From contig JADHYG010000015.1 of the NCBI GenBank assembly GCA_016782545.1, positions 1 through 20,024 on the forward strand: a DNA stretch of 20,024 bases, read 5' to 3'. Position numbers and translations under genes: made by a program. Of this stretch, positions 945 to 16,157 are shown piece by piece; within the stretch, counting starts at the first letter, position 1, and every line of letters begins with the position of its first letter. Source of the stretch: Candidatus Microgenomates bacterium. GTDB lineage: Bacteria > Patescibacteria > Microgenomatia > JADHYG01. The notes under the pieces were generated by a model. That model was given only the letters and a program-made list of their open reading frames with translations. It was not told the origin of the DNA and made no database searches.

Positions 945-1502
945 ATGAAAGTAAAAAAATTGACATTTTCAAAATTATTTAAACTGTTGATAATTTTAGC
1001 CATTCTTTTTATTGGCTATCAATTAATAGTTCGGCCGCGTCTTTTTCAAAAACCATTTTTTTCTCAAAAAACAACCTCAATTAGTTCAGTCATAGCAATA
1101 ACAGATGTTAAAAAGAGCTTTGAATTTGAAGCCATTGTCGTTAAAGGGAAAGGAGCAGAAAGAATTGTTTTTACTATTGTTTCGGCTGAATTAAAAGAAG
1201 AAATTAAAGTTAAAGGAGAATCAAGAAAGGTTAATGAGGGAAAACAATTTTTACTTTTGCGACTGGAAATTGAAAATGACACTACAGAAAAACTAGCGAT
1301 GATTACCAGTGATTTGATTCGTCTGGTTGATAACGAAGACAAAAAATATGCCCCTGATTTTCATAATGCCACTGTTGTTATTGATCCTCTTTCTGTCAGA
1401 AAAGATCTGGTTTCCTTTATTGTTGATGCAAAATTAAAAAGCTTTAAGTTGCTAGTGGGAGGATTAGAAAAGGAAAAAGAAACAGTTGAGATAAATTTCT
1501 AA
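945..1502 (+). CDS. Membrane-anchored protein with DUF4352-like domain
   Basis: The 185-residue protein starts MKVKKLTF. It has one N-terminal membrane segment (about residues 12-28, LLIILAILFIGYQLIV) with a basic cytoplasmic end, then a short linker and an extracytoplasmic beta-rich domain. The pattern EGKQFLLLRLEIENDT, then LIRLVDNEDKKYAP, then PLSVRKDLVSFIVD fits the DUF4352/immunoglobulin-like family of lipid- or membrane-anchored proteins, whose function is mostly unknown. A TTG at 867 would add 26 residues but would run the coding region through a terminator hairpin, so ATG 945 is preferred. No Shine-Dalgarno is visible, because the T-tract occupies that position. The gene ends 19 bases before the DUF2292 gene. 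Confidence 0.75.
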   Translation: MKVKKLTFSKLFKLLIILAILFIGYQLIVRPRLFQKPFFSQKTTSISSVIAITDVKKSFEFEAIVVKGKGAERIVFTIVSAELKEEIKVKGESRKVNEGKQFLLLRLEIENDTTEKLAMITSDLIRLVDNEDKKYAPDFHNATVVIDPLSVRKDLVSFIVDAKLKSFKLLVGGLEKEKETVEINF

Positions 1503-1521
1503 TCTGTTTCTACCCAAAACA

Positions 1522-1701
1522 ATGGTTGATTATTTCACCAAAAAAATCAGCAATGATCTTTTATCAGAAATAAAATCCGCTTTAAAAAATATCCGTGGTT
1601 GGGGAAGTGTCGAGCTTTATGTTCAAGATTGGCGGGTAGTGCAGATAACCGAAAGAAATATAAAAAAGACAACTCATGCTTTAAGAAAGAAGCACAAATA
1701 A
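1522..1701 (+). CDS. DUF2292 (YezD-like) small protein, 59 aa
   Basis: ATG at 1522 opens a 59-codon frame ending TAA at 1699-1701. The core, from about residue 18 to 42 (IKSALKNIRGWGSVELYVQD, then WRVVQI), matches the DUF2292 consensus of an alpha helix, a Gly-x-Val-Glu strand and a D-x-x-V-V-Q-I strand. The family's role is unknown; members are small soluble proteins. The C terminus is basic (KKTTHALRKKHK), which could suggest nucleic-acid contact, though that is only inference. It probably shares a transcript with the upstream DUF4352-like gene (19-bp gap) and is followed five bases later by a strong promoter. Confidence 0.75.
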   Translation: MVDYFTKKISNDLLSEIKSALKNIRGWGSVELYVQDWRVVQITERNIKKTTHALRKKHK

Positions 1702-1706
1702 GGCAC

Positions 1707-1735
1707 TTGACAAATTTTTGAGAATTATATATAAG
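1707..1735 (+). promoter_or_regulatory. Strong sigma70-type promoter
   Basis: A perfect -35 TTGACA (1707-1712), a 17-base spacer and a -10 TATAAG (1730-1735) predict a start near 1742. Only 88 bases separate this start from an intrinsic terminator, so it appears to serve a short RNA. Confidence 0.7.
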
Positions 1736-1741
1736 TAATTC

Positions 1742-1829
1742 ATCTAACCCATAAGAAAATTTAATAAGAAACTAAGCAATTATTGCTGACCGCACCCGGA
1801 GGCAATCCTGAAAAAGGATTGCCTTTTTT
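1742..1829 (+). ncRNA. Candidate small RNA of about 88 nt
   Basis: The unit is bounded by a consensus promoter (1707-1735) and a textbook terminator (1800-1829), with no ORF inside. An internal agcaa/ttgct mini-hairpin lies at 1775-1787, followed by gctgaccgcacccgg, and no known RNA family was recognised. A second TTGACA begins three bases after the terminator T-tract. The RNA and the downstream secreted-protein gene may therefore be separately transcribed, or this may be an attenuated leader of that gene. Confidence 0.5.
1800..1829 (+). terminator. Intrinsic terminator of the small RNA unit
   Basis: Stem aggcaatcct (1800-1809), loop gaaaa and aggattgcct (1815-1824) form a perfect 10-bp hairpin that runs into six T residues (1824-1829). 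Confidence 0.85.
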
Positions 1830-1831
1830 AG

Positions 1832-1861
1832 TTGACAATCGAATTTTTCTTTAACAATCAA
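1832..1861 (+). promoter_or_regulatory. Probable promoter of the small secreted repeat protein
   Basis: A perfect -35 TTGACA lies at 1832-1837. The -10 is unclear: candidates at 1855-1863 (caatca, tcaaat) are weak. The position between a terminator and a gene with a very strong ribosome binding site supports a promoter here. Confidence 0.4.
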
Positions 1862-1881
1862 ATTATGAAGAATTTCTAACG

Positions 1882-1892
1882 AAAGGGGGTGA
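1882..1892 (+). promoter_or_regulatory. Unusually strong Shine-Dalgarno site
   Basis: The sequence aaagggggtga lies 9 bases before ATG 1902 and is nearly fully complementary to the 16S rRNA 3' end. Most genes in this window have weak or no such site, so it points to high translation and fixes the start. Confidence 0.8.
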
Positions 1893-1901
1893 AAAAATAA
1901 T

Positions 1902-2393
1902 ATGGTTAAAAAAATTGTTGCTTTAACCGGTGCTGGAGCTGTTCTTTTATCCTTGGCTGTACCAGTATTTGGCTGGACCCCACGTAAGGATATCGCCATC
2001 ATTGAGAACAATGAAATTAGTGCAAGCGCAAATACTGGCATGAATAGTCAAGATGTTACAGCTAAGGCTCAAAAAGGTGGTGATGTATACGCTAATGGTA
2101 CCCGTACTATTTCTACCGGTAATGCTCACGCCAAGGCCAAAGGAGTCATTGTGGCTAACACTCACGTTGGTTGCGGTCCTTTCGGTGGAGAACCACGGCA
2201 CAAAGACGTAGCTGTGGTTAAAAACAACGTAGTTTATGCCGATGCTAATACTGGACTTAACTGGCAGGATGTTGAAGCTAAGGCTCAAAAAGGTGGTGAG
2301 GTAAACGCTAGCGGTACGCGTACTATCTCCACTGGCCATGCTTGGGCAAAGGCTAAAGGTTATGTTGTTGTTAACACCCACTTGAGTTTGTAA
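1902..2393 (+). CDS. Small secreted two-repeat surface protein, 163 aa
   Basis: Residues 1-24 form a signal peptide (MVKK, hydrophobic stretch, then VPVFG) with cleavage likely before Trp25. The mature protein is two repeats of about 60 residues (about 29-91 and 100-163). Each begins D[IV]A[IV][IV]xNN, continues ANTGxNxQDVxAKAQKGG, then GTRTISTGxAxAKAKG, and ends VxNTH. They are joined by a Gly/Cys/Pro linker (HVGCGPFGGEPRHK). The same grammar recurs in the 982-residue protein downstream. Such regular Gly/Asn/Ala patterns suggest a beta-solenoid or fibre subunit. Codon use is richer in C-ending codons than in neighbouring genes and the ribosome site is very strong, so high expression is inferred. 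No membrane anchor remains after cleavage. No named family was recognised. Confidence 0.85.
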   Translation: MVKKIVALTGAGAVLLSLAVPVFGWTPRKDIAIIENNEISASANTGMNSQDVTAKAQKGGDVYANGTRTISTGNAHAKAKGVIVANTHVGCGPFGGEPRHKDVAVVKNNVVYADANTGLNWQDVEAKAQKGGEVNASGTRTISTGHAWAKAKGYVVVNTHLSL

Positions 2394-2409
2394 AGTTGCG
2401 GTGGTGCTT

Positions 2410-2443
2410 CTAAACAGTCAACCCTTGACTGTTTAGGGCTTTT
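2410..2443 (+). terminator. Probable terminator after the small secreted protein
   Basis: Stem ctaaacagtca (2410-2420), loop accct and tgactgtttag (2426-2436) form a perfect 11-bp hairpin. It is followed by ggcttttc, so the T run is short (four) and termination may be partial. Confidence 0.6.
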
Positions 2444-2444
2444 C

Positions 2445-2470
2445 GGAAGGAGAAGAATTCTTCTCCTTCC
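2445..2470. repeat. Perfect 26-bp palindrome
   Basis: The half ggaaggagaagaa (2445-2457) is followed directly by its exact reverse complement (2458-2470), with no spacer. It lies 8 bases after the terminator stem. It could strengthen termination as RNA or bind a dimeric protein as DNA. Confidence 0.75.
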
Positions 2471-2500
2471 CATAAAGCCGGAGAACTAATTTTTACATAG

Positions 2501-2525
2501 ATCCTGAATCAAGTTCAGGATGACA
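2501..2525 (+). repeat. REP-like palindrome (atcctgaa type)
   Basis: Stem atcctgaa (2501-2508), loop tcaag and ttcaggat (2514-2521), followed by gaca. This is a half-unit of the longer paired palindrome at 12776-12846. Confidence 0.7.
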
Positions 2526-2552
2526 GAGGTACTATTTTAAAGTAAAAAACAA

Positions 2553-5501
2553 ATGAATCTTAAAAAACTTTTAGCCGCAATTTTGGTTTTTCTTTTAATC
2601 TTCAATCCTTTTGTTATTCCTTTAGCTTTTGCTCAAGAAGAAAATCCTGAGGCGGCTACTCAAGAAGAACAGGGAGAGGAAGAGGAAGAAAAGGAGGAAG
2701 ATAAGGGAGAAGGGGAAGAGGAAGAAGATGAAGAAGGTCAAGAAGAGCAAGAAAAAGAACAAGATCAGGAAGAAAAAGAGGCCCGAGATAATCAAGAAAT
2801 TGAGGAAGAAGTAGAAGGAGATACTGATGGAATTGATACTCCAGAAGACTTTAAGACAACACCAACTCCTTTATCCAGCATTACTACCGGTGATACCGCT
2901 TCAGAGGCAGAGACAAAAACCATTCTTAATTACTATCAGGAAGAAGTAGAGGGAGAAATAACTGGTGGCGACTGCAGTCTTGAAGGAGAAATTGAATGCT
3001 CGATGGCGCATGCAAACGAGGCAGACTCAGAGTCTTCAGCCGACGCTCAAAGTACTACCGGCGAAAATGAAATTCTTAACACTCCCGGTGACGCTGTGAT
3101 AGATTCAGGAACAGCCACTGCCATTGCCGAAGCTGAAAGCATCATTAATACTAATATTACTGAGTTAATACCGGCAGATAATCTGGAAGCTGATAGTTTT
3201 GGTGAACTTGAGGATGATGAGGAAGATGGTGGGCATTATGTAATCAATAACAACGAAGCGACGACTGAAGATACCAGTAATGTCGAGGCCAGCAGTGGTG
3301 ATAATAAAGCCAACGGAAACCAGGGAGATGCCACGGTTACTACTGGTCCAGCCTATGCCTCAGCCAATCTTGTTGATATTATCAATACCAATATTTTGGG
3401 TTCCAATTTTGAGGTTCTTTTATTTGATATTAATGACGAAACCGGCGATATTAACTTATTGATGATTTGGAATCAGCTCGAGCAAGAAACAGGCAAGGAT
3501 CTTTCCGGTGTTTTGGTTTTGAATTCAAATTCAACCAATCTCTTAATAGTCAATCACAACGAAGCTCAGTCAGACAGTTTAGCAACGGCCATTGCTGATT
3601 CGGGCGGCAACGAGGCGTCTAATAATGAAGGGAAAGCAACAATAGAAACCGGCGATGCTTATGCCAGCGCCAACATTTTTAAATTAGTTAACACCAACAT
3701 TATTGGCGGAAAATTTCTTTTTGTCGTCATTAATATTTTTGGAGACTTTAGTGGTAATATTATTGTCCCCAGCCGCGAGCGATTTTTAGAGGGACAAAGT
3801 ACTGATCTAGACAGTGATAGTGATGGGAGTTTTCCTCAAATAGTCAATCAAAATGAGGCAGTAGTTGAGGGTGGTGTTCTGGCGATTGCTGATAGCGGCA
3901 ATAATGAAAGCAATAATAATGGTGGCGACAACATGATGGAAACTGGGTCGGCGGCGGCTCAGGCCAATGCCATCTCAGTAGTTAATCTTAATATTCATAA
4001 AGACAACTGGTACCAGATTCTTTTCAATAATCTTGGTGAGTGGTTGGGGAAGATCTCGGGTTGGTCAAGTCCAGATGCTCAAGAGACAGCTGAGGAGGGA
4101 TTGATTGATCTAAGTTTTGACGGAAATCACGAAAATGGTGACTCAGGACAAGAAACTCAAGCCCAAAGTGGTGATAATGACAATGGCACTTCTCCTCTTT
4201 TTGTTTTTAATCAAAACAAGACCCAAAGTTCTGATCAGGTAATGGCTCAGGCTAAAACAGGAGGTAATCAGGTCAATAATAACGATGGAGGAGTGACGAT
4301 AAAAACAGGGGCGGCTAAGGCAATTGCCAATCTTGTTCGTTTTGTTAACGTTAATATTTTAGGTGGTCGGTTTTTCTTTCCTATTATCAATCTTTTTGGA
4401 CGCTGGACAGGGAATCTTATCTTTGCTTATCCTGAGATTGCCGTTAATTTGACCAATGGCATAGGTCGGGTTGTCCCCGGAGAAATATATCAATATACGG
4501 TTAATTTTGTTAACCAAGGATATGATAGAGCCAGTGATGTGTTTTTACAGCTTGAACTGCCTGATGGCGTCATTTTTCTTGGCGATTCAAGTGGAATAAC
4601 TCCTCAAGTAATAGGAGGAACTTGTATTTGGTCTCTTGGCAGTCTTGAGGTAGGTGAAGCGGGAACTTTTAAAATTAAAGTTCAGATTGACTCCGAGTTT
4701 TCAGGTGAAGAGCCACTTTCTTTTTGGTCAAAGTTGATTCCTCAAGCCCATGCGGCGGAAAGTGAAAGAGAAAATGAAGTTATTACTACAGTTTCAATTG
4801 AGACAGTCGATCCCGAACCTGATTTTTCTAATAATGTTTCTTCAGCAAAAACCACAGTTTATTTTCCCATATCAGAAGAAGCAAAAGATGATATGAGTAA
4901 CCAAGGAAAAAATCAGACGGGAGAGGAAAATGCTGATTCATTACTACCACTACCACAACTCGAAATTACCGCTTGGAATAATGTGGGTGAGTTTGTTTAT
5001 CCTGGAGATACAGTTACTTTTGAAATCACAGTTAAAAATATAGGTGAAGGAATTTCTTATGATACTTATGTTACCCAAGAGCTTTTTAATGGCCTGCCAG
5101 AAAAAGATTTTGGGACAGCCAAATTTGAGATTGGAAAGCTTGATGTTGGCAAAGCGGCTAAGCTTACCTTCGGCTTAAAATTAGACAATGGTGAAATGTT
5201 ATCAACAGGATTTTATCATACTGTGGCTCAAGCATATGGTTATAGCTTTAGCGGAGTTGAGGTTAAATCAAATGAGGCTAAGACGCAGTTTGAAATAAGA
5301 ACTGGCAAAAATTCTTTTTTTCCAGGAAAAGTAAAAGCCGCTGAAGGAGAAATTCTTGCCAATACTATTGCTTGCCCTTCTTGTAAAAAAGAAGAAGACA
5401 TTCTTCCTTATCTTTTGCTTTTTCTTTTAAGTTCTACTTGGCTTGTTAATTGGGGTAAAATGAAGTTGGCAAAAAAGGAGGTATCGGCCCAAAAAACATG
5501 A
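2553..5501 (+). CDS. Large secreted repeat/DUF11 surface protein, 982 aa
   Basis: The signal peptide covers residues 1-27 (ends PLAFA). Residues 28-95 are an extreme Glu/Lys/Gln-rich segment. From about 115 to 625 come roughly five loosely repeated units of about 100 residues. Each has N-x-NEA, an A-x-SG-x-N block, G-x-A-x-x-x-TG-x-A-x-A-x-AN, then (V/I)NTNI and a hydrophobic FFxxxNxFGxxxGN end. Two DUF11-like beta-sandwich domains follow (about 630-740 and 805-920; GEIYQYTVNFVNQG and GDTVTFEITVKNIGE). A CPSC motif, a membrane segment (about 949-966) and a basic tail (KMKLAKK) close the protein. It is probably anchored in the membrane with the repeats outside the cell. The repeat grammar matches the 163-residue neighbour. 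No Shine-Dalgarno is visible, and the gene overlaps the next by 4 bases. Confidence 0.85.
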   Translation: MNLKKLLAAILVFLLIFNPFVIPLAFAQEENPEAATQEEQGEEEEEKEEDKGEGEEEEDEEGQEEQEKEQDQEEKEARDNQEIEEEVEGDTDGIDTPEDFKTTPTPLSSITTGDTASEAETKTILNYYQEEVEGEITGGDCSLEGEIECSMAHANEADSESSADAQSTTGENEILNTPGDAVIDSGTATAIAEAESIINTNITELIPADNLEADSFGELEDDEEDGGHYVINNNEATTEDTSNVEASSGDNKANGNQGDATVTTGPAYASANLVDIINTNILGSNFEVLLFDINDETGDINLLMIWNQLEQETGKDLSGVLVLNSNSTNLLIVNHNEAQSDSLATAIADSGGNEASNNEGKATIETGDAYASANIFKLVNTNIIGGKFLFVVINIFGDFSGNIIVPSRERFLEGQSTDLDSDSDGSFPQIVNQNEAVVEGGVLAIADSGNNESNNNGGDNMMETGSAAAQANAISVVNLNIHKDNWYQILFNNLGEWLGKISGWSSPDAQETAEEGLIDLSFDGNHENGDSGQETQAQSGDNDNGTSPLFVFNQNKTQSSDQVMAQAKTGGNQVNNNDGGVTIKTGAAKAIANLVRFVNVNILGGRFFFPIINLFGRWTGNLIFAYPEIAVNLTNGIGRVVPGEIYQYTVNFVNQGYDRASDVFLQLELPDGVIFLGDSSGITPQVIGGTCIWSLGSLEVGEAGTFKIKVQIDSEFSGEEPLSFWSKLIPQAHAAESERENEVITTVSIETVDPEPDFSNNVSSAKTTVYFPISEEAKDDMSNQGKNQTGEENADSLLPLPQLEITAWNNVGEFVYPGDTVTFEITVKNIGEGISYDTYVTQELFNGLPEKDFGTAKFEIGKLDVGKAAKLTFGLKLDNGEMLSTGFYHTVAQAYGYSFSGVEVKSNEAKTQFEIRTGKNSFFPGKVKAAEGEILANTIACPSCKKEEDILPYLLLFLLSSTWLVNWGKMKLAKKEVSAQKT

Positions 5502-6322
5502 AGAAAATCTTAAGAAAACTTTCAGAGATAATATTTGTTGTTTTTATGCTGGCGGTTTTTCTTTACTCCGGCCATCGGGTTCTTTCTTATCTTAAAGTCA
5601 TTAAGACCAAAAGCCTTGAGGCTTTTAGTGAAGACGTTTCTCAAGACGAAAATTGGAATTGTGGATGTTGTGGTTCTAATACTCGACCATGTGAATTGGG
5701 AGAGAGTTTGTGTGAACGATTAGAAGAATGGTGTGGAAAATTTTGTCATCGACCAACTCCCACTCCAACATCTACGACTGTTTTCACTCCTACGCCGACT
5801 TTTCCATCAGAAGAGCCAACTTCTACTCCAACACCGTCTCCTACAGCTACACTAGGATCAGGACCAACAGCAACCCCAGGACCGGCAGCTGACGGACCAG
5901 TAGGAGGAGGATGTGATGCAGGGGTACCAATTGCTCCAAAACTCATTTCAGCGATTAAAGTAGGAAGCGAAGCAAGTTTGCTTTGGAATCCTGTTTTACC
6001 CGTAACTCATTATGCTATTGCTTATGGAACTGTTTCTGGAAGCTACCAATATGGTGTTTCTAATACAGGTAATGTGACTGCTTATAAAGTGGGAGAATTA
6101 AATTCAGCTAGCGATTATTGTTTTGTAGTAGCGGCAGTCAATGACTGTGCTTCTTCACCTTACTCAAATGAAGTTTGCACCGGTGTTGCTATTGGCGAAG
6201 GGAAGGTTTTAGGCTTGGCGGTTACTAGCGGGGAAGAATGGATAGAGCTGGCCTTTTCTCTTATTGGTCTGGCATGTATTTTAAACGGCTTAAGATTAGT
6301 AAGGCCTTTAAGAAGAAGATAA
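5498..6322 (+). CDS. FN3 surface protein with sorting-signal-like C terminus, 274 aa
   Basis: An N-terminal hydrophobic segment (about 8-30) acts as signal or anchor. A Cys-rich knot follows (about 54-85, with NCGCCG), then a Pro/Thr linker (86-130, TPTPT repeats) and a fibronectin type III domain (about 145-232). The C terminus is tripartite: LGLAVTSG at 238-245, a hydrophobic stretch at about 248-267, and a basic RPLRRR end. This is the layout of a sortase substrate, with LAVTS resembling the LAxTG motif known for class E sortases. The sortase gene directly downstream supports this reading. The ATG overlaps the previous stop (ATGA) and is preceded 15 bases upstream by aaggaggt, so the two surface genes are translationally linked. 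Confidence 0.8.
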   Translation: MKKILRKLSEIIFVVFMLAVFLYSGHRVLSYLKVIKTKSLEAFSEDVSQDENWNCGCCGSNTRPCELGESLCERLEEWCGKFCHRPTPTPTSTTVFTPTPTFPSEEPTSTPTPSPTATLGSGPTATPGPAADGPVGGGCDAGVPIAPKLISAIKVGSEASLLWNPVLPVTHYAIAYGTVSGSYQYGVSNTGNVTAYKVGELNSASDYCFVVAAVNDCASSPYSNEVCTGVAIGEGKVLGLAVTSGEEWIELAFSLIGLACILNGLRLVRPLRRR

Positions 6323-6602
6323 AAAAGGCCAAGAAAAGATTTATTAAAGACAAAAAAATCTTTGGTATTATTTTAATCTTCGTTGGTCTTTTTTTCTTTC
6401 TTTTCTTTCCTTTTGTTAAATTTTTCTCAAAAATTTCTTTGGAGCCGAAAAGCGAGAAAGAATCAAAAACTGTAAAAAAAGAGATTCAAAGAGAAAATTT
6501 TAGTCCAATAAAAATCGATTCCCAACTTTTATCTTTAGAAGAACCTTATCAATTACCTCAAAGAATCATTATTCCTAATCTTAACATTGACCTTTCTATA
6601 CG

Positions 6603-6644
6603 GTCCGCTTTTAGCGGACAGAGAACCACGGGCTATGCCCGTGG
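6603..6644 (+). repeat. Left-end hairpins of the IS200-type element
   Basis: The first hairpin is gtccgct (6603-6609), loop ttt, agcggac (6613-6619). The second is ccacgggc (6626-6633), loop tat, gcccgtgg (6637-6644). The second hairpin recurs at the right end and at 186-204, and these are the structures TnpA is expected to bind. Confidence 0.8.
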
Positions 6645-6683
6645 GTGAATGAGTGCGGCGACGATATGCGGTAAAATAGAAGA

Positions 6684-7118
6684 GTGAAGGTAATACATTC
6701 CGGCCATGGGGTATATACAGTAGAGTATCATGTTTGCTGGATAACTAAATATCGTAGACGCATCCTGAATCCTGGAGTTCAAGGATACCTAAAGAAACTT
6801 TTTCCTAAGGTATTAAGAAGCCTTCCAGGAGTAGAAATAGAGGTAGTTGGTATGGAAGTTGATCATATTCATCTGGTGATGATTATTCCACCAACAGTTT
6901 ATGTTGTCAGTCAGGCAATAGGAAAGATAAAACAATTTACATCAAGTAAACTGAGGAAAAAGTTTCCTTTCATCAAGAAAGTTTATTGGAAAGAAGCTGT
7001 TGTTTGGTCACCTGGCTATTATGTTTCTACCATTGGTTTGGATGAGAAACGAATCAAAAAATACGTTGAATGGCAGGGAAGACAGGATTCAGGTCAACTT
7101 CAGCTGAAACTCAGCTGA
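6684..7118 (+). CDS. tnpA: IS200/IS605-family Y1 transposase TnpA
   Basis: The 144-residue length is typical of the single-domain HUH (Y1) transposases that cut and rejoin single-stranded DNA hairpin ends. The HUH motif is His61-Ile-His63 (DHIHLVM). The catalytic tyrosine is Tyr127 with Gln131 in YVEWQ, the same spacing as in the characterised IS608 enzyme. The GYYVSTIGLD segment before it is also typical. The start is GTG at 6684, since no ATG lies near the N-terminal beta strand (HGVYTVEYHVCWITKYRRR). All key residues are present, so it is probably active. The stop codon lies inside a 12-bp inverted repeat (7096-7122). Confidence 0.92.
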   Translation: MKVIHSGHGVYTVEYHVCWITKYRRRILNPGVQGYLKKLFPKVLRSLPGVEIEVVGMEVDHIHLVMIIPPTVYVVSQAIGKIKQFTSSKLRKKFPFIKKVYWKEAVVWSPGYYVSTIGLDEKRIKKYVEWQGRQDSGQLQLKLS

Positions 7119-7122
7119 AGTT
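7096..7122 (+). repeat. Inverted repeat over the tnpA stop codon
   Basis: The arm aacttcagctga (7096-7107), loop aac and tcagctgaagtt (7111-7122) form a perfect 12-bp stem. The bases gtaaaaaa follow rather than T residues, so it is not a standard terminator for tnpA. It may limit translation or read-through at the gene end. Confidence 0.65.
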
Positions 7123-7130
7123 GTAAAAAA

Positions 7131-7166
7131 GTGAAGAAGCCACGGGCTATGCCCGTGGAGCTTCAC
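7131..7166 (+). repeat. Right-end hairpin of the IS200-type element
   Basis: The core is ccacgggc (7140-7147), loop tat, gcccgtgg (7151-7158). It is extended by gtgaag (7131-7136) pairing with cttcac (7161-7166) across a small internal loop. The core is identical to the left-end hairpin. Confidence 0.8.
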
Positions 7167-7525
7167 AGTAGAGGCAAAAGTAGTAGAAGGGTTTTGGGAA
7201 CTTTCTAAAACTTCTGCTTCTCACGGAATTGGTTCAGCTAATCCCGGAGAAAAAGGCAATATCGTTATCTTTGCTCATACTAAAAAGGGACTCTTTCTTC
7301 CTTTAAAAAAGATCAGTCAAGAAGAAGTCATCTATATCCTAACAAAAGATCATTGGTATCGTTATCAAGTAAAAGAGATAAAAGACGTTTTTCCTGATCA
7401 AGTCGAAGTTATAAAGCCAACAGAAAAGGACACTCTTACTCTTTTTACCTGCACAGGCTTTGCCGACACCAAGCGTTTAATCGTCATTGCCGAAAGAATT
7501 GAGAATTAAATGATACACCAATGAT

Positions 7526-7585: not shown

Positions 7586-8266
7586 ATGCCAGGAAGAAAT
7601 GTAGTTTTAGCAACAGGAGAGATTTATCATATTTTTAATCGAGGCAATGCCTATCGGCCAACCTTTTTAAATATTAGAGATTATCAACGATTCTTAAAAA
7701 CACTTACCTTTTATCGACACTTATCATTACCATTAAGACTTTCTAAATACCTTCTTCTTTCTCAAGAAAAAAGAATTTTGCTAGAAGATAAATTAACTGA
7801 AAAAGACAAGTCTCTTGTAGACATTTTCTGTTTTTGTCTTATGCCCAATCATTATCATTTACTCTTAAGACAAAAAGAAAAAGAAGGAATCTCTAAATAC
7901 ATGAGTCAATTACAAAATAGCTATACAAGATATTTAAACGTTAAAAGAAAACAAGTTGGTTCTATTTTTCAAGGCCATTTTAAAGCAGTAAGAATAGAAA
8001 CCGATGAGCAATTAATTCATCTTTCAAGATATATTCATCTTAATCCCTATTCTTCTTTTGTTGTAAAATCAATAGAAAGACTTAAAACTTATCCATGGTC
8101 ATCTTTGCCTGATTATTCAAACGATGGAAAACACTCTTTTCTTAAAAAGAGATTAATTCTTGATTTTTTCAAAAACATTGAAGACTATCAAAAATTTGTT
8201 TTTGATCAAGCTGATTATCAAAAGAATCTAGAAAAAATCAAACATTTGACTTGGGAAAAGAAGTAG
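7586..8266 (+). CDS. REP-associated tyrosine transposase (RAYT), 226 aa
   Basis: The N terminus (EIYHIFNRGNAYRPTF) and the following DYQRFLKTL fit the RAYT branch of Y1 transposases. The HUH motif is His89-Tyr90-His91 (MPNHYHLLL). The probable catalytic tyrosine is Tyr113 in the SYTRYLN segment, followed by GSIFQGHF and RYIHLNP, both conserved in the family. The length of 226 residues is normal for RAYTs and much longer than the IS200 TnpA next door. RAYTs nick and join REP hairpins and are usually kept as single-copy chromosomal genes. The flanking inverted REPs and the distant copy at 748 give it obvious substrates. The protein is unrelated to the interrupted sortase just upstream, whose stop lies 77 bases before this ATG. 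Confidence 0.88.
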   Translation: MPGRNVVLATGEIYHIFNRGNAYRPTFLNIRDYQRFLKTLTFYRHLSLPLRLSKYLLLSQEKRILLEDKLTEKDKSLVDIFCFCLMPNHYHLLLRQKEKEGISKYMSQLQNSYTRYLNVKRKQVGSIFQGHFKAVRIETDEQLIHLSRYIHLNPYSSFVVKSIERLKTYPWSSLPDYSNDGKHSFLKKRLILDFFKNIEDYQKFVFDQADYQKNLEKIKHLTWEKK

Positions 8267-8873: not shown

Positions 8874-9818
8874 ATGAAGACTTTGGCAATGCATCTTTTT
8901 TTACCTCATCATTCTAATAATCATCGGCCAAAGGTTTTACAGCCTCAAGCGGTAATGCTTTATGTGGTTTTCTTTTTTATTCTCCAAATGGGTTTTCGGG
9001 TGGGGAAATTTATCTACCCGAATATTTTAGGAATAGCGACTAATATTACTGCTAATGATTTACTTTCTTTAACTAATCAAAAAAGGCAGGAAAATGGACT
9101 TTCCTCTCTTAATTTAGACAACACTCTTTCTATGGCGGCGGCAAAAAAAGCCCAAGACATGTTTATGAAAAACTATTGGGCTCATATTTCTCCTGATGGA
9201 ACAACGCCCTGGCAGTTTATTGAGGGAAGCGGCTATGTTTATCTTTTTGCCGGCGAAAACCTGGCTAAAGATTTTGCTGATTCTCATGGTGTTGTTGCCG
9301 CTTGGATGGCCTCTCCAACCCACAAAGACAATATTTTAAAAAGTGAATATCAAGATATTGGCTTTGCTATTGTCAATGGTCAGCTTAACGGTGAAGAAAC
9401 AACTTTGGTTGTCCAGATGTTTGGGCAGAAAAAGAGTGCTTTAGCCTCTAAACCATTGCTTGTGCCGGCGAAAGCAGCCATTGCTCAAAGTCCTTTAGAA
9501 AGCCCTTCGCAGCCAAAGCCGACTTTAGTGCCGACGATGATTACGCCAACGCCAGTATTAGTAAAGATTTCGCCAGTTGTTTTTTCTTCTTCAATAGAAG
9601 CGGCGGTAATTAAAAAACCATTAATTGACATTCTTAGTTTAGAAAGAGTTCTTTCTTTAGGTTTAGTCAGTCTTTTGCTTTTTGTTTTAATAGTTGATGG
9701 TGTTTTTATGTTAAAAAGAAAAACAGTCAGAGTAGTTGGTCATAACATTGCTCACATTGTTTTCTTAATTACTCTTATCAGTTTAATATTCTTAACTAAT
9801 CAAGGAGTGATCTTATGA
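8874..9818 (+). CDS. CAP (SCP/PR1-like) domain membrane protein, 314 aa
   Basis: An N-terminal membrane segment (about 27-48) is followed by a CAP domain (about 60-186). It shows His104 (WAHISPDG), Glu128 (AGENLA) and His150 (SPTHKDNIL), the usual CAP cavity residues. A Pro-rich linker (about 196-228) leads to two C-terminal membrane segments (about 253-276 and 290-310). The CAP domain should lie outside the cytoplasm. The family's molecular role in bacteria is largely unknown; some members act on or bind envelope components. It opens the long gene row under a leaderless-type promoter, has no Shine-Dalgarno, and overlaps the next gene by 4 bases, so it is co-expressed with the sugar genes. 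Confidence 0.85.
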   Translation: MKTLAMHLFLPHHSNNHRPKVLQPQAVMLYVVFFFILQMGFRVGKFIYPNILGIATNITANDLLSLTNQKRQENGLSSLNLDNTLSMAAAKKAQDMFMKNYWAHISPDGTTPWQFIEGSGYVYLFAGENLAKDFADSHGVVAAWMASPTHKDNILKSEYQDIGFAIVNGQLNGEETTLVVQMFGQKKSALASKPLLVPAKAAIAQSPLESPSQPKPTLVPTMITPTPVLVKISPVVFSSSIEAAVIKKPLIDILSLERVLSLGLVSLLLFVLIVDGVFMLKRKTVRVVGHNIAHIVFLITLISLIFLTNQGVIL

Positions 9819-10072
9819 TTACGAGGATAAAAAATCATTTTTTTCCATATTTGATTCTTTTCAGTCTTTTAAGCTTGGGAGCAATAAGTTTTCTTTTATC
9901 TGCCGGCAATAAACATTCGCAGTTCAAAATCGTTGTTCTCACATCTTTTTTTTATGTAGTTTGGGGGATGATTCATCATTTTTTGGACAAGACGCTTTAC
10001 CTTAAAATTGTGATAGAATATATTGCTGTGGCCATGTTGGCGATAGTTGTTTTAGGAGGACTTTTATTATGA
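9815..10072 (+). CDS. Small three-helix membrane protein, 85 aa
   Basis: The protein is almost entirely hydrophobic: predicted membrane segments lie at about 10-30, 37-54 and 64-85. The second helix ends in VVWGMIHHFLDKT, where a pair of histidines and an aspartate stand out. The start is supported by aaggag (9802-9807), seven bases before the ATG. It overlaps the CAP gene and rmlA by 4 bases on each side (ATGA), so it is translationally coupled to both. No function is recognised. Confidence 0.7.
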   Translation: MITRIKNHFFPYLILFSLLSLGAISFLLSAGNKHSQFKIVVLTSFFYVVWGMIHHFLDKTLYLKIVIEYIAVAMLAIVVLGGLLL

Positions 10073-10791
10073 AAGGCGTTATTTTAGCTGGCGGCAAAGG
10101 GACAAGACTTTATCCTTTGACTTATGCTACCAACAAACATCTTCTTCCCATTTACAATAAACCAATGATTTTTTATCCAATTAATACTTTAGTTCAGGCG
10201 GGAATAAAAGAAATCATGATCGTTACCGGCGGTCCTCATGCTGGTCATTTTATCCGCGTTTTAAGAAATGGAAAAGAGTTGGGAGTTAAACATTTAGAAT
10301 TTGCTTATCAGGAAAACGAAGGCGGCATTGCTGAAGCCCTTTCTTTAGCAGAAGATTTTTCTGATCAAGGACCATTGGCAGTTATTTTAGCAGACAATAC
10401 GACTGATGCTGATATTTCTAGAGAAGTTTCTTCATTTAAAACAGGGGCGACTATTTTTATCAAAAAAGTGCCAGACCCCGAACGTTTTGGCGTGCCTGTT
10501 TTTGATGAAAAAAATCCTCAGAAAATTATTAAAATTGAAGAAAAACCTAAAAATCCCAAGTCTTCATATGCAGTGACTGGTCTTTATATTTATGACAAAA
10601 AAGTCTTTGACTATATTAAGAAAACTAAGCCTTCGCAAAGAGGAGAATTAGAAATTACTGACGTTAATAATCTTTATATTAGAGATAAAAAGCTTAAATG
10701 GGCTGAGCTTGGAGGATTTTGGTCTGATGCTGGTAAGTTTAAAACTCTTTTTTTAGCTAATAAATATTGGGCGGAGAAAGGAGATAGATGA
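10069..10791 (+). CDS. rmlA: Glucose-1-phosphate thymidylyltransferase (short RmlA)
   Basis: This enzyme joins glucose 1-phosphate and dTTP to make dTDP-glucose, the first step to dTDP-L-rhamnose. The nucleotide-binding signature GGKGTRLYPLT (8-18) is intact, followed by NKHLLPIYNKPMIFYP, the metal-site loop LADNTTD (about 105), EEKP, and the C-terminal ELEITDVNNLYI and FWSDAGKF. At 240 residues it is about 50 shorter than the classical bacterial enzyme and lacks the extra C-terminal helices used for allosteric control, so dTDP-rhamnose feedback may be weak. That is inference. A strong aggagga lies 8 bases before the ATG, and the gene overlaps both neighbours by 4 bases. Confidence 0.9.
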   Translation: MKGVILAGGKGTRLYPLTYATNKHLLPIYNKPMIFYPINTLVQAGIKEIMIVTGGPHAGHFIRVLRNGKELGVKHLEFAYQENEGGIAEALSLAEDFSDQGPLAVILADNTTDADISREVSSFKTGATIFIKKVPDPERFGVPVFDEKNPQKIIKIEEKPKNPKSSYAVTGLYIYDKKVFDYIKKTKPSQRGELEITDVNNLYIRDKKLKWAELGGFWSDAGKFKTLFLANKYWAEKGDR

Positions 10792-11228
10792 TGATTAAAG
10801 GTGTGGTTTTAAAAAAAATAGTTCGTCATCCTGACGAGCGGGGATTTTTTGAAGAGTTAATTAAAACAACCGACCCTTTTTTTAAAGAAGGTTTTGGTCA
10901 ATGGAGTCATTCTTTTAAAAAAAAGGGAGTTGTTGTTGCTTGGCACTATCATCCTACTCAGATTGACTGGTGGTTTGTTTCTCGAGGAACATTAAAGGTT
11001 GGCCTTTATGATCTACGGGAAAAATCAAAGACTGAAAATGAGATTAATGAGTTTGTTTTAGGCGAAGAGGGAAAGAATGTGATTTTGAAGATTCCGGCTA
11101 TGGTGGCTCACGGTTTTAAGGTTTTAAAAGGACCAGCCGAACTTTTTTATATTACCTCCAAAATTTACAATCCTAAAGAAGAGGGAAGAATTGCTTGTAA
11201 CGATCCTAAAATTAATTATGAGTGGTAA
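10788..11228 (+). CDS. rmlC: dTDP-4-dehydrorhamnose 3,5-epimerase-like cupin (RmlC)
   Basis: RmlC epimerises C3 and C5 of the 4-keto-6-deoxy sugar. The pattern HPDERGFFEEL, SHSFKKKGVV, AWHYHPTQ (catalytic His where RmlC has GLHYQ), WWFVSRGTLKVGLYDLR, IPAMVAHGF and the final YITSKIYNP is clearly RmlC-like. At 146 residues it is shorter than the usual 180 or so, and the Arg before the catalytic His is replaced (VVAWH rather than LRGLH). A related sugar isomerase role is therefore possible, but the flanking rmlA, rmlB and rmlD favour RmlC. It starts at an ATG overlapping the rmlA stop, after aaaggaga. Confidence 0.85.
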   Translation: MMIKGVVLKKIVRHPDERGFFEELIKTTDPFFKEGFGQWSHSFKKKGVVVAWHYHPTQIDWWFVSRGTLKVGLYDLREKSKTENEINEFVLGEEGKNVILKIPAMVAHGFKVLKGPAELFYITSKIYNPKEEGRIACNDPKINYEW

Positions 11229-11757
11229 AAAATGGAAAACTCTATCTTCTAAAATTGTTTATAAAAATCCCTTTATGAAAATAAGGGAAGACAGTGTGCT
11301 GAGACCGAATGGCAAAGCAGCCCCTTTTTATGTTTTGGACAGGTTTGGTCCTTTTTCAGTCGTTATTCCTTTAGAGAACAACTTAACCACCTATCTTGTT
11401 GGTCAATACCGCTATTCAACTCAATATTATTCTTGGGAGTTTCCGATGGGAGGGGTAATTGGTCTTTCTCCTTTAGCAATAGCTAAACAAGAATTAAAAG
11501 AAGAAACAGGTTTATCAGCAAAAAAATGGCAGCAACTGGGAAAGTTTCAGGTTTCTCCAGGCCACTCAAGTCAAGAGGGTTTTGTTTTTTTAGCTCAAGA
11601 TTTAAAAGAAGGGGAGTTTGAACCTGAAGAAGATGAGTTTTTAGAGATTAAAAAAACACCCATCCAAAAAGTAGGCGAAATGATTAAAAAAGAAGAAATT
11701 TTAGATGGGCCAACCATTATTGCTTATCATTTCTTAGAACAACATTTACAGATATGA
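11218..11757 (+). CDS. Nudix hydrolase, ADP-ribose pyrophosphatase-like
   Basis: The 179-residue protein starts MSGKKWKTL. The layout is that of ADP-ribose/nucleotide-sugar pyrophosphatases: VLDRFGPFSVVIPL, then QYRYSTQYYSWEFPMGG, then the Nudix box at 78-99. Within the box Glu92, Glu95 and Glu96 (QELKEETGL) keep the metal-binding core. The usual Arg is Gln91, the early Glu is Leu, and the loop after GG is one residue short, so substrate or rate may differ. A TTG at 11191 would add nine residues within rmlC; ATG 11218 overlaps it by 11 bases and is preferred. Its place between rmlC and rmlB suggests it acts on a sugar nucleotide or clears a by-product, which is inference. Confidence 0.85.
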   Translation: MSGKKWKTLSSKIVYKNPFMKIREDSVLRPNGKAAPFYVLDRFGPFSVVIPLENNLTTYLVGQYRYSTQYYSWEFPMGGVIGLSPLAIAKQELKEETGLSAKKWQQLGKFQVSPGHSSQEGFVFLAQDLKEGEFEPEEDEFLEIKKTPIQKVGEMIKKEEILDGPTIIAYHFLEQHLQI

Positions 11758-12767
11758 AGATTTTAGTCACTGGCGGGGCAGGTTTTATCGGCAGTAATTT
11801 TGTTCTTTATTGGCTGAAAAAATATCCAAAAGACAAGATTATTAATTTGGATAAATTAACTTATGCTGGTAATTTAGAAAATCTTAAAGAGTTAGAAAGT
11901 AATTCAAATTATCAGTTTATTAAGGGTGATATTTGTGATCCCCAAACAGTTGATCAGGCGATGGAAGGTGTAGAAATAGTTATTCATTTTGCCGCCGAAT
12001 CTCATGTTGATCGATCAATTTTAAATCCAGCCGAATTTATCATGAGCAATGTGGTAGGAACACAGGTTTTATTAGATGCGGCTTTAAAATATAAGCTTAA
12101 AAAATTTCATCATATTTCTACTGACGAAGTTTTTGGCAGTTTAAAACTTGATGATGCTGAAAAATTTAATGAAGAAACAATTTATAGTCCTCGCAGTCCT
12201 TATGCGGCCAGCAAAGCCGCCTCAGATCATTTAGTCAGGGCCTATCATATAACTTATGGTCTGCCAATAACCATTACTAATTGTTCTAATAATTATGGAC
12301 CATTTCAATTTCCAGAAAAGCTAATCCCTTTGGCGGTGACTAATATTTTGGAAGGTAAAAAAGTACCTATTTATGGAGATGGACTTTATGTTCGTGATTG
12401 GCTTTATGTTGAAGACCATTGTCAAGCTATTGATTTAGTTTTAGAAAAAGGCAAAGCAGGAGAGACTTATTGTGTGGGGGGATTAACAGAAGATATTAAC
12501 AATTTAACCGTGATTAAGAAAATTTTAGAAATTTTAGGAAAAGATGAAAGTTGTCTTGAATTTGTTAAAGACAGACCCGGTCATGACCGAAAATATGCTC
12601 TTGATTGGTCAAAAATCAAAAAAGAACTCGGTTGGCAGCCCAAATATGATTTTGATACTTATCTTGAAAGAACAGTGAACTGGTACAAAGAGAATGATAA
12701 TTGGTGGAGAAGAGTAAAATCAGGAGAATATCAAGAATATTATAAAAGACAGTACAATCAGCAATAG
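11754..12767 (+). CDS. rmlB: dTDP-glucose 4,6-dehydratase
   Basis: The enzyme converts dTDP-glucose to dTDP-4-keto-6-deoxyglucose using tightly bound NAD. This is a full-length short-chain dehydrogenase at 337 residues. The Rossmann motif GGAGFIG is at 7-13, the dehydratase triad Thr123-Asp124-Glu125 is in ISTDEVFG, and Tyr150 with Lys154 is in YAASK. NCSNNYGP and YGDGLYVRDWLYVEDH are diagnostic of RmlB. The ATG overlaps the Nudix stop by 4 bases, and no strong ribosome site is seen, suggesting coupling. The gene is followed by a paired palindromic repeat before rmlD. Confidence 0.95.
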   Translation: MKILVTGGAGFIGSNFVLYWLKKYPKDKIINLDKLTYAGNLENLKELESNSNYQFIKGDICDPQTVDQAMEGVEIVIHFAAESHVDRSILNPAEFIMSNVVGTQVLLDAALKYKLKKFHHISTDEVFGSLKLDDAEKFNEETIYSPRSPYAASKAASDHLVRAYHITYGLPITITNCSNNYGPFQFPEKLIPLAVTNILEGKKVPIYGDGLYVRDWLYVEDHCQAIDLVLEKGKAGETYCVGGLTEDINNLTVIKKILEILGKDESCLEFVKDRPGHDRKYALDWSKIKKELGWQPKYDFDTYLERTVNWYKENDNWWRRVKSGEYQEYYKRQYNQQ

Positions 12768-12775
12768 TTTGTTAA

Positions 12776-12846
12776 TGTCATCCTGAATTTATTTCAGGAT
12801 CTCGAAATTTAGAAGATATAGATTCTGAAACGAGTTCAGAATGACG
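12776..12846. repeat. Paired REP-like palindromes between rmlB and rmlD
   Basis: The first hairpin is atcctgaa (12780-12787)/ttcaggat (12793-12800). The second is attctgaa (12822-12829)/ttcagaat (12835-12842). The outer ends gtcatcctgaa and ttcagaatgac are themselves inverted, so the unit is a BIME-like pair. A half-unit lies at 2501-2525. Confidence 0.75.
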
Positions 12847-12858
12847 TTTGTAATGAAT

Positions 12859-13812
12859 ATGAAACAAAAGATTATTGGTATTGGACTTTCAGGTATGGTG
12901 GGTTCAAGAATAGTTGATCTTTTAAAAGATCAATATCAATTTGAAAATTTAAGTCTAGAAACAGGAGTTGATATTAGGGACAAAGAGCAGGTAAAAGAAA
13001 AGATATCTAAATCAACCGCTCAAATCATCCTTCATTTAGCCGCCAAAACTGATGTTGATTCATGTGAGAAAGATAAAAAAGAAGATATTAGGATATTAAA
13101 ATATCAAGATATTAAGAAAAAGCAGGAGTATTTTAGAACAACTAATAGTGCCTGGGCGGTTAATGTTATCGGCACAAAAAATATTGTTGATGCTTGTAAG
13201 AAATTTGACAAAAGAATGATTTATATTTCCACTGATTTTGTTTTTGACGGCAAAAATCCGCCAACTGGTGGATATACAGAAAAAGATAGTCCTCATCCAA
13301 TCAATTGGTATGCACAAACCAAATATGAAGGAGAGAAGATTGTCAGAAAATCAAAATCTTCTTATCTTATTTTGCGCATTGCTTTTCCATTTAGAGCCTT
13401 TTTTGCCCAAAAAAAAGACTTTGTGAGGAGCATTTTAGAAAAATTAAAAAAAGGAGAAAAAATCAAAGCTTTTTCTGATCAGATTATTACGCCTACTTTT
13501 ATTGATGATATTGCTTATGCTTTAAATTTTTTGATTCAGAAAAATGCAATTGGAGTTTATCATTTAGTTGGCAGTCAATCTTTAATACCATATAAAGCAG
13601 TTTGTTTAATTGCTTCACAATTTAATCTTGACACCAAGCTTGTCAGCTGTGTTAGAATAGATGATTATTATAAAAATAAAGCGTCAAGACCAAGAAAATT
13701 GGTTTTGAGCAACGATAAGATAAAAAAAATAGGCGTGAAAATGAGGAGTTTTGAAGAGGGAATAAGAGAAGTTAAGAAACAAAGATTAAAATTTTCAATT
13801 TCTAATTTTTAA
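12859..13812 (+). CDS. rmlD: dTDP-4-dehydrorhamnose reductase
   Basis: RmlD reduces the 4-keto sugar to dTDP-L-rhamnose, the last step of the pathway. Numbered from ATG 12859 (MKQKIIGIGLSGMVGSR), it shows the cofactor motif near 7-15, Ser124-Thr125-Asp126 (STDFVFDG), Tyr151 and Lys155 (YAQTK) and the C-terminal RPRKLVLSNDKIKK typical of RmlD. Two oddities are visible. A Lys-rich insertion of about 15 residues (EDIRILKYQDIKKKQEYF) precedes the AWAVNVIGT helix. The last residues, KFSISNF, are encoded by an AT-rich repeat. The upstream ATG at 12841 lies inside a REP palindrome and 12853 is also possible; 12859 fits the fold best. No Shine-Dalgarno is visible. Confidence 0.85.
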   Translation: MKQKIIGIGLSGMVGSRIVDLLKDQYQFENLSLETGVDIRDKEQVKEKISKSTAQIILHLAAKTDVDSCEKDKKEDIRILKYQDIKKKQEYFRTTNSAWAVNVIGTKNIVDACKKFDKRMIYISTDFVFDGKNPPTGGYTEKDSPHPINWYAQTKYEGEKIVRKSKSSYLILRIAFPFRAFFAQKKDFVRSILEKLKKGEKIKAFSDQIITPTFIDDIAYALNFLIQKNAIGVYHLVGSQSLIPYKAVCLIASQFNLDTKLVSCVRIDDYYKNKASRPRKLVLSNDKIKKIGVKMRSFEEGIREVKKQRLKFSISNF

Positions 13813-13890
13813 TTTTCATTGAATTTTCAATGATTCAATTTACAAACTTACCTACCGGCAGGCAGACTGTTTGAAAATTGTAAATTGCGA
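13793..13890. repeat. AT-rich intergenic repeat with nested inverted repeats
   Basis: cattgaa (13817-13823) pairs with ttcaatg (13826-13832), and caatttacaa (13836-13845) with ttgtaaattg (13878-13887). The latter pair encloses a GC-rich island (ctaccggcaggcag) at 13852-13865. The run attttcaatttctaattttt at the left end forms the 3' end of rmlD. It looks like a small non-autonomous repeat. Confidence 0.5.
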
Positions 13891-13895
13891 ATTAT

Positions 13896-15197: not shown

Positions 15198-15200
15198 AAA

Positions 15201-16157
15201 ATGAAAAAAAAAGCTTTGATTACTGGTATTACTGGTTTTGTTGGTTCACACTTAGCTGAATTATTGCTTAAAAAAGATTTTATGGTTTATGGAACAACAA
15301 GACCACGAAGTAAAACAGAAAATATTGATCATATTGAAAACAAGCTTGAGCTTTACGATGCCGATCTTTTAGATTCTCATAGTTTTTATTCATTAGTAGT
15401 TAAAATTAAGCCTGATTTTATTTTTCACTTGGCCGCTCAGAGCTTTGTGCCGACTTCATGGGCTTCACCAGCCAATACTTTGGAAACTAATATTCTTGGC
15501 TCGGTTAATCTTTTTGAGGCAGTGAGAAGAGCAGAAATTAACCCCGTCATTCAAATTGCTTGTTCTTCAGAAGAATATGGCTTAGTGCGTAAAGATGAAG
15601 TCCCGGTCAAAGAAACTAATCCGTTGAGACCTTTATCACCCTATGCAGTTTCAAAAGTAGCCATGGATTATTTAGGCTATCAATATCATCAAAGCTATCA
15701 GATGAAAATTATTATGACGAGGGCTTTTAATCATACTGGTCCGCGGCGAGGAGATGTTTTTGTTTGTTCAAATTTTGCCAAACAAATCGCCTTGATAGAA
15801 AAAGGAAAACAATCATCAACAATTTTTGTTGGCGACCTTTCTTCTCAAAGAGATTTTACTGATGTACGTGATGTTGTTAAGGCCTATCTTTTGTCTGTTC
15901 AAAAATGCACGCCAGGAGAAGTTTATAATATTGCTTCAGGCAAGACCTGGGAAATAAAAAAAGTTTTAGAAATACTTCTCTCTTTTTCTAAAGTAAAAAT
16001 AGATATTAAAAAAGATCCTGAAAGGTTTAGACCTTCAGATGTGCCTATTCTTTTAGGCGATTCAACTAAGTTTAGAAAAAAAACCGGTTGGCAGCCGGAA
16101 ATTTCTTTTGAAAAAACCTTAAAAGACCTTCTTAATTATTGGCGTGAAAGAGTTTAA
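15201..16157 (+). CDS. GDP-mannose 4,6-dehydratase / GDP-6-deoxy-4-ketomannose reductase family
   Basis: This is an extended short-chain dehydrogenase of 318 residues: GITGFVG at 9-15, Ser122-Ser123-Glu124 in CSSEEYG, and Tyr148 and Lys152 in YAVSK. NHTGPRRGDVFVCSNFAKQI, GDLSSQRDFTDVRDVVKAY and the end RPSDVPILLGDSTKFRKKTGW resemble the RMD-type reductases that make GDP-D-rhamnose. The N-terminal KKALITGITG and the missing Thr of the dehydratase triad leave some ambiguity with GMD. Either way it would act on GDP-4-keto-6-deoxymannose chemistry, a second deoxyhexose route beside the dTDP-rhamnose genes. aggaggt lies 5 bases before the ATG. Confidence 0.8.
   Translation: MKKKALITGITGFVGSHLAELLLKKDFMVYGTTRPRSKTENIDHIENKLELYDADLLDSHSFYSLVVKIKPDFIFHLAAQSFVPTSWASPANTLETNILGSVNLFEAVRRAEINPVIQIACSSEEYGLVRKDEVPVKETNPLRPLSPYAVSKVAMDYLGYQYHQSYQMKIIMTRAFNHTGPRRGDVFVCSNFAKQIALIEKGKQSSTIFVGDLSSQRDFTDVRDVVKAYLLSVQKCTPGEVYNIASGKTWEIKKVLEILLSFSKVKIDIKKDPERFRPSDVPILLGDSTKFRKKTGWQPEISFEKTLKDLLNYWRERV

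Follow-up and report, generated by a model that had tools for sequence, protein, structure and literature searches.

A 20,024-nucleotide contig of Candidatus Microgenomates bacterium (JADHYG010000015.1; this whole stretch is referred to below as the window) carries two adjacent genes whose products share one repeat unit and which recur side by side across Patescibacteria. The shared unit, the gene pairing, the anchoring features, the association with sortases, the intergenic hairpins and a codon bias, all read from sequence, are compatible with a model in which both genes encode one co-assembling surface fibre or coat, the small protein being the major subunit and the large one its membrane-anchored base and nucleator; we consider the chances of this favoured explanation to be evenly balanced. 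The very large group Patescibacteria is known chiefly through genome sequences, and for its contact with hosts most of the credit goes to type IV pili. They receive it in a family survey, which also describes a sortase found almost throughout Microgenomates (PMC6744442), and in a 2026 review in whose main text neither amyloid nor sortase appears (PMC13293708). Ultrasmall cells are furthermore reported, in a cryo-transmission electron microscopy (cryo-TEM) study, to bear pili-like appendages and a periodic membrane structure (PMC7906910). As a second appendage or coat, a conserved two-gene surface system is a concrete candidate that can be tested; its assets are a repeat family of its own, an often sortase-linked partner and hairpins that may set the subunit ratio. 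If the model is true, a huge branch of bacterial life possesses an unrecognised surface structure. The pair is laid out as follows.

1902 to 2393, + strand: small repeat protein, 163 amino acids, likely secreted, without a C-terminal anchor, proposed major subunit (open reading frame with two units; family of 60 matches; mostly beta model)
1902 to 1976, + strand: putative hydrophobic signal region at the N terminus of the small protein, about residues 1-25 (sequence; helix in the model)
2007 to 2168, + strand: repeat unit S1, residues 36-89 (34.7 bits)
2211 to 2384, + strand: repeat unit S2, residues 104-161 (36.2 bits)
2394 to 2552, + strand: intergenic RNA with strong hairpins, not terminator-like (-60.7 kcal/mol, z -7.15, 0 of 200 shuffles as stable)
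2553 to 5501, + strand: large repeat protein, 982 amino acids, proposed membrane-anchored base or nucleator (open reading frame; relatives; model)
3012 to 3158, + strand: repeat unit L1, residues 154-202 (38.9 bits)
3246 to 3395, + strand: repeat unit L2, residues 232-281 (53.2 bits)
3552 to 3701, + strand: repeat unit L3, residues 334-383 (59.0 bits)
3846 to 3995, + strand: repeat unit L4, residues 432-481 (43.6 bits)
4209 to 4358, + strand: repeat unit L5, residues 553-602 (46.4 bits)
4437 to 4850, + strand: DUF11 domain with Ig-like fold, residues 629-766
4959 to 5303, + strand: second Ig-like domain, about residues 803-917
5403 to 5495, + strand: C-terminal membrane helix and basic tail, residues 951-981 (helix in the model; sequence)

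An original prediction, made from the window alone, had placed both open reading frames (ORFs) correctly and had counted seven repeat units, which are indeed present as two in the small and five in the large protein. The 51-residue unit model that locates them was seeded with the seven window units and rebuilt with units of relatives, so that its scores (34.7 and 36.2 bits in the small protein, 38.9-59.0 bits in the large one) mark positions and provide no independent test. Such a test of the shared repeat comes from cross-matching, in which each profile is built from one family only. Specifically, the small-family profile (55 members) matches the repeat part of the window's large protein at 52.1 bits, where the best of 1000 shuffles reaches 8.0, and the large-family profile (28 members) matches the mature small protein at 17.5 bits, a weaker margin over the 10.6 bits of the best of 1000 shuffles. 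The repeat is common to both proteins, as had been claimed.

The detailed grammar proposed for this repeat holds in part. The motif TG-x-A-x-A-x-A occurs at residues 72 and 144 of the small protein and 264, 366, 464 and 585 of the large one, with means of 0.003 and 0.0015, respectively, in 2000 shuffles. N-x-N, which was said to belong to both repeats, is absent from the small protein when sought with the patterns N.N.A and N[NTHQE]N, and the small units are spaced 72 residues apart rather than about 60. In the large protein, where a unit of about 100 residues had been proposed, the spacing is 98-121. The motif (V/I)NT[NH] is found in the second unit of the small protein (157) and in three units of the large one (198, 277, 379), the first small unit reading ANTH and the last two large units VNLN and VNVN. 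The hydrophobic insert described in the large protein, which contains N-x-x-G-x-W-x-G, is real and conserved: among 28 sequences including the window's, N394, N613, W618 and G620 are invariant and G401 and G616 nearly so. Secondary structures predicted for the two repeats, as read from two models, agree at both conserved turns of the shared core, which is predicted to run from a strand through an A-x-TG-x-N turn into a strand and, further on, from a strand through a TG turn into a long strand. The observation of a shared repeat is partly confirmed, and its interpretation as a pair of coat or fibre proteins partly supported; neither outcome named in advance as counting against it, differing predicted folds (compared here as secondary structure) or a lack of co-occurrence in relatives, was encountered.

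No named family had been recognised for the repeat, and no Pfam or NCBIfam model was found for it. Across the window pair, the 55 small-family members and the scanned long partners and downstream repeat proteins, Pfam gives nothing over cut-off except DUF11 in the window's large protein (PF01345, 52.3 bits vs a cut-off of 24.6), and the 55 small-family proteins have no Pfam match at E 0.01 either. NCBIfam returns only a DUF11-type repeat over cut-off for the window pair; a long partner and a downstream repeat protein, one of each, have no match there at E 0.01. The small protein is weakly matched by a PHROGs family of unknown function (E 9.6e-5). After one profile round, searches that scored only the 7994 best candidates gave 60 matches at E 0.001 for the small family and 158 for the large repeat region; among the matches listed for the latter (120 of 158), the relatives belong to named Patescibacteria lineages, apart from one row labelled 'bacterium' only. 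Viral contigs yielded no confirmed relative with a single small protein, A5 and A6 as queries. A small-family scan of genome contigs produced 16 pattern matches and no confirmed one; the family was later found in loci of the same collection, and the confirmation step may be too strict for short proteins rich in Asn, Ala and Gly. Pfam and NCBIfam have apparently missed a repeat family that, in the one class sampled, at least 110 of 372 genomes possess. No published description of the pair was found among the papers listed, in several cases 10-20 of more than a thousand, a scope that excludes preprints and most subscription papers.

The analysis of relatives bears out the proposal that the two genes occur together. 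A scan of named species genomes gave 32 loci, from Shapirobacteria, Roizmanbacteria, Amesbacteria, Woesebacteria, Levyibacteriota, Moraniibacteriota, Paceibacterota and others, and including one short contig in a spirochaete-labelled bin. In the class to which a Roizmanbacteria genome (locus L003, genome G003) belongs, 145 of 372 genomes have a large-family match at E 0.001; the best 110 of these 145 (large match at E 4.4e-33 or better) were used, 19 of them already being among the 32 loci and 91 being added. The 124 loci analysed, which include the window and leave out L033-L067, all contain a large ORF with at least two units. The large gene is preceded by at least 700 bp of sequence in 115 loci, and in 109 of these a same-strand repeat gene lies within 900 bp upstream; two of the other six (L008 and L151) have one farther upstream, at 1.4 and 1.6 kb. 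Upstream genes at L010, L024 and L030 match the small-family profile (E 3.3e-19, 1.1e-5 and 9.9e-9), and at L090 the small-family match of the genome (G115) lies about 0.4 kb from its large-family match. Counted over mechanical ORFs of at least 120 amino acids, units are borne by 111 of the 126 same-strand ORFs found up to 900 bp upstream, by 42 of the 143 found up to 900 bp downstream and by 19 of the remaining 883 in the loci.

Since these loci were chosen via the large gene, a reverse test starting from the small family was needed. It covers the 53 class genomes with a small-family match at E 0.001, in 44 of which the best such match lies within 3 kb upstream of the best large match on the same strand; among the other nine, the small-family match is 3.2 kb away in one, falls inside the large match in two and sits on a different contig from the best large match in three, while the last three genomes lack a large match among the 110 rows used. 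Beyond this class, two phyla were sampled, Patescibacteria and that of the spirochaete-labelled bin. In the former, 120 of 379 genomes match at E 1e-10, many rows covering the DUF11 part only, and about 41 reach the repeat part by our reading of the rows among the matches listed. In the latter, 1 of 198 genomes matches, namely the bin itself, which is labelled Brevinema andersonii and holds a Patescibacteria-type pair on a 3582-bp contig (L012); because this is the sole match of 198 in the phylum and sits on a 3.6-kb contig, the sequence is probably mis-binned. The pair is widespread across Patescibacteria.

The architecture of the two proteins suggests a free and an anchored component, as originally proposed. 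In the large protein, an N-terminal hydrophobic segment is followed by an acidic low-complexity stretch, the five repeats, a pair of DUF11-type Ig-like domains and, at the C terminus, a membrane helix. A simple hydrophobicity rule finds a C-terminal transmembrane segment (TM) in 97 of 124 large proteins, some of those without it ending at contig ends (for example at L009), and finds none in 109 of 112 upstream partners; an N-terminal hydrophobic segment is present in 104 of the 112 partners and in as many of the 124 large proteins. The partner is either short, as in the window (47 ORFs below 260 amino acids, usually with two units), or long (65 ORFs, usually with four), and 114 of 124 large proteins have 4-6 units, the copy number of the unit varying as modules.

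The spacer between the two genes is 159 nt long in the window. Relative to shuffles, the first 110 nt after the partner's stop codon fold with z below -2 in 93 of 96 intergenic regions (median -5.0; filtered at 40-300 nt, actual range 50-267 nt, the whole spacer being used below 110 nt); the 110 nt that follow the large gene do so in 14 of 119 cases (median -0.09). Intrinsic terminators were considered and rejected, as only 4 of the 96 have at least four T in the 8 nt after the best hairpin, and a terminator scan found no terminator-like + strand site in the window spacer. The loop GCACUUC occurs in a hairpin of 30 of 96 intergenic regions, where 0.3 would be expected after mono-shuffling; the loci concerned are L076, L077, L086, L088, L103 and 25 others, the hairpin lying between partner and large gene. 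These 30 hairpins were picked by their loop, whose invariance is therefore by selection. Their stems covary, with 79 cells changed on both sides vs 26.2 in shuffles and 10 covarying pairs vs 8.0 (a count of 10 is attained in 14 of 500 shuffles); most of this covariation disappears when the partners are slid. The window hairpins are without this loop, and other loci have different strong hairpins, such as a group with ATCCTAG in the hairpin. Rfam, searched over window positions 1500-2700, gave one match that is not credible (E 0.5, 21.6 bits vs a gathering score of 70).

At two-fold pyrimidine sites, the window's small gene ends in C in 14 of 29 codons, the highest use of the 14 window genes tested, vs fractions of 0.09-0.26 in the 13 others, and in 82 of 103 pairs the fraction is higher for the partner than for the large gene. 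In E. coli, one study reports, structured RNA that shields parts of operons from decay sets unequal mRNA levels, the protective structures there lying mostly within coding regions (PMC5927463). Because of the intergenic hairpins and the codon bias, the small or upstream protein is probably made in excess.

From these features we infer an export route, an abundant small protein, stacking, polymerisation and nucleation by the large protein, which would combine as follows. Both proteins would leave the cell, probably via Sec. The small protein, with two beta-rich units and no anchor, would be produced in excess, and the large protein would hold five units atop two Ig-like (DUF11-type) domains by its C-terminal membrane helix. 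Units would stack edge to edge and in register, such that the membrane-held array could act as a template to which free small proteins add, the fibre or coat growing from the membrane outward. In some lineages, a sortase-anchored neighbour would add a wall-linked part. A more specific version is that Patescibacteria possess a functional-amyloid-like fibre system of their own, with no sequence relationship to curli, in which a 2- or 4-layer subunit polymerises on a membrane-fixed template of 4-6 layers, its excess being set by the intergenic hairpin and its base being linked to the wall by sortase; we put this forward tentatively, as somewhat less than an even prospect. Such fibres could be some of the pili-like appendages on ultrasmall cells.

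Assembly is the weakest link in this model and is unproven. The structural models predict a mostly beta small protein with a helix at residues 3-23, and a large protein with confident beta structure in the repeat units and a helix at 951-981. Foldseek ranks FapC chains first and second, and neither these nor the other matches to solved amyloids are significant. A sequence search of solved structures gave nothing credible. A fold search of the large model gave Ig-like and other matches, almost wholly within residues 626-918 (VIA list); viral-library fold matches of the same model were set aside, as they come without residue ranges. Same-position coupling between units at matched numbers is 2.23 for adjacent units, then 1.87 and 1.53, vs 0.33 for the decoy; duplication could give the same pattern, and the coupling was judged not decisive as proof of stacking.

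One alternative is a non-polymeric receptor or adhesin complex, in which the large protein would be a membrane-held adhesin stalk and the small one would bind to it, in equal or otherwise low numbers, as a cap or as a soluble co-receptor. The large protein does resemble an adhesin stalk with its Ig-like domains and TM, and the repeat unit need not polymerise, many beta-solenoids being scaffolds rather than polymerisation units (PMC10192328). However, the hairpins and codon bias point to more small than large protein, and a partner whose unit number differs between lineages, usually 2 or 4, would be odd for a fixed cap. We regard this complex as unlikely, though it is the strongest competitor of the fibre model.

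Among known systems, curli and Fap are the closest in logic, and by analogy the pair may work like them. Curli comprise, like the pair proposed here, a secreted couple of related Asn-rich beta repeats, CsgA and CsgB, with a major subunit and a surface-held minor one, of which CsgB nucleates CsgA (PMC10192328); the minor protein here differs in having its own membrane helix and Ig-like domains. The pair does not belong to curli: the curlin repeat PF07012 exceeds its cut-off in none of 32 genomes, with a single sub-threshold match (G004, E 0.107), in a search whose control passed over cut-off in one control genome, E. coli being listed. CsgG is absent from all 31 genomes other than G012, the 3.6 Mb spirochaete-labelled bin, which has it. 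In Fap (FapC, FapB), one report describes each imperfect FapC repeat (the first two have their cores at residues 45-96 and 110-161) as one cross-beta layer held by conserved Asn/Gln (PMC12392863). The unit here has 51 residues, many Asn and several short predicted strands. The large protein also shares with DUF11 (PF01345) surface proteins a DUF11 domain over cut-off, but here DUF11 forms only the stalk, and the repeat units lie outside it and are without a family found. A further likeness exists to the TasA/SipW operon, as the pair at L025 is directly followed by TasA-like and SipW-like genes, with look-alikes at L026; these are of another protein family, were seen in these two related loci only, and do not reach equivalog cut-offs in the domain scan, which covered L025. 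The genes concerned, a TasA/camelysin-like gene and a SipW-like signal peptidase (L025, 12166-14388; L026, 11972-14217), perhaps form a second fibre-type system within one cluster with the pair.

Growth as a sheet instead of a fibre is a further alternative, in which the small protein would tile the cell as a two-dimensional, S-layer-like coat held by the large protein. An abundant secreted subunit with a membrane anchor fits such a coat, and ultrasmall groundwater cells show by cryo-TEM a periodic membrane structure (10 nm and 3.8 nm) of unknown composition (PMC7906910). No lattice-forming domain was seen in the pair, however, and the unit grammar would favour one-dimensional stacking, which makes the sheet improbable, more so than the receptor complex.

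The sortase neighbourhood adds a wall-linked element to the model and, at the same time, speaks to the last alternative. A sortase accompanies the pair in about half of the loci: 63 of 124 have a sortase-like ORF in the flank, a count that excludes the window's split gene and is drawn from flanks of differing length. Among 68 sortase-like ORFs, TLxTC occurs in 37 and the looser T-[LIV]-x-TC in 39, and a Pfam sortase is present somewhere in 26 of 32 genomes. In 51 loci the sortase-like ORF is on the same strand and no more than 1.5 kb downstream, and 41 of these loci have an intervening ORF, with a sorting-like motif in 36 of them, by a permissive pattern without a shuffled control, and with repeat units in 28. 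A further repeat gene follows within 900 bp downstream of the large gene in 42 of 124 loci, and 25 of these 42 proteins have a sorting motif (such as LPATG or LPVTG) together with a TM at the C terminus. A sorting-like motif that departs from the canonical LPxTG, GL[SA]xT[SAG], recurs in many loci at C termini before the sortase, and also in that of the window's fn3-like protein. In known sortase pili, the shaft pilin carries the sorting signal. A sortase-assembled covalent pilus with the repeat proteins as pilins, which the nearby sortases and the motif-bearing ORFs before them would suit, is already weakened and very improbable, as TM and sorting motif occur together in none of the 112 proposed major subunits and in 1 of the 124 large proteins, a difference from sortase-assembled Gram-positive pili.

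In the window, the following genes continue this neighbourhood.

5498 to 6322, + strand: Cys-rich, Pro/Thr-rich fn3-like protein, ending in GLAVTSG, a hydrophobic stretch and RRR (PF00041 at 25.0 bits, at cut-off)
6238 to 6648, + strand: 5' piece of an interrupted sortase gene (weak class E sortase match, E 0.076, far below cut-off; beside 7150-7509; gene order of L002)
6684 to 7118, + strand: IS200/IS605-type transposase between the two sortase pieces (PF01797 at E 1.1e-25; NF033573)
7150 to 7509, + strand: 3' piece of the sortase gene, reading TLTLFTC (TIGR01076 at 55.2 bits vs a cut-off of 39.35)

The fn3-like protein, which has related ORFs in 8 loci with the window included, is judged from its C terminus a likely sortase substrate. 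The sortase gene of the window is split by an IS200-type element, and L002, with the same gene order, has an uninterrupted 194-amino-acid sortase-like ORF at that place. A class could not be assigned, as the 3' piece passes the general sortase model only and a piece cannot reach class cut-offs; its frame was opened at 7150, and its first residues may belong to the IS element. The element within the split gene (6238-7510) has hairpins near its ends, CCACGGGC...GCCCGTGG. A second Y1 transposase near the sortase, of the REP-associated tyrosine type (Y1_Tnp), lies at 7586-8266.

Farther downstream, positions 8874-10072 encode a CAP-domain protein with hydrophobic segments and then a small DUF5656-like membrane protein; genes of both kinds recur near the pair in 5 loci, the window included. 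A putative surface-sugar cluster adjoins the pair downstream at 10069-16157, consisting of what we take, from sequence, to be nucleotide-sugar genes (dTDP-rhamnose type, a UDP-sugar dehydrogenase and epimerases). Just upstream of the small gene, at 1798-1826, there is a terminator-like hairpin with a T run, of a kind no commoner in the window than in shuffles; given this hairpin, the pair may be transcribed from a start of its own or be preceded by a leader.

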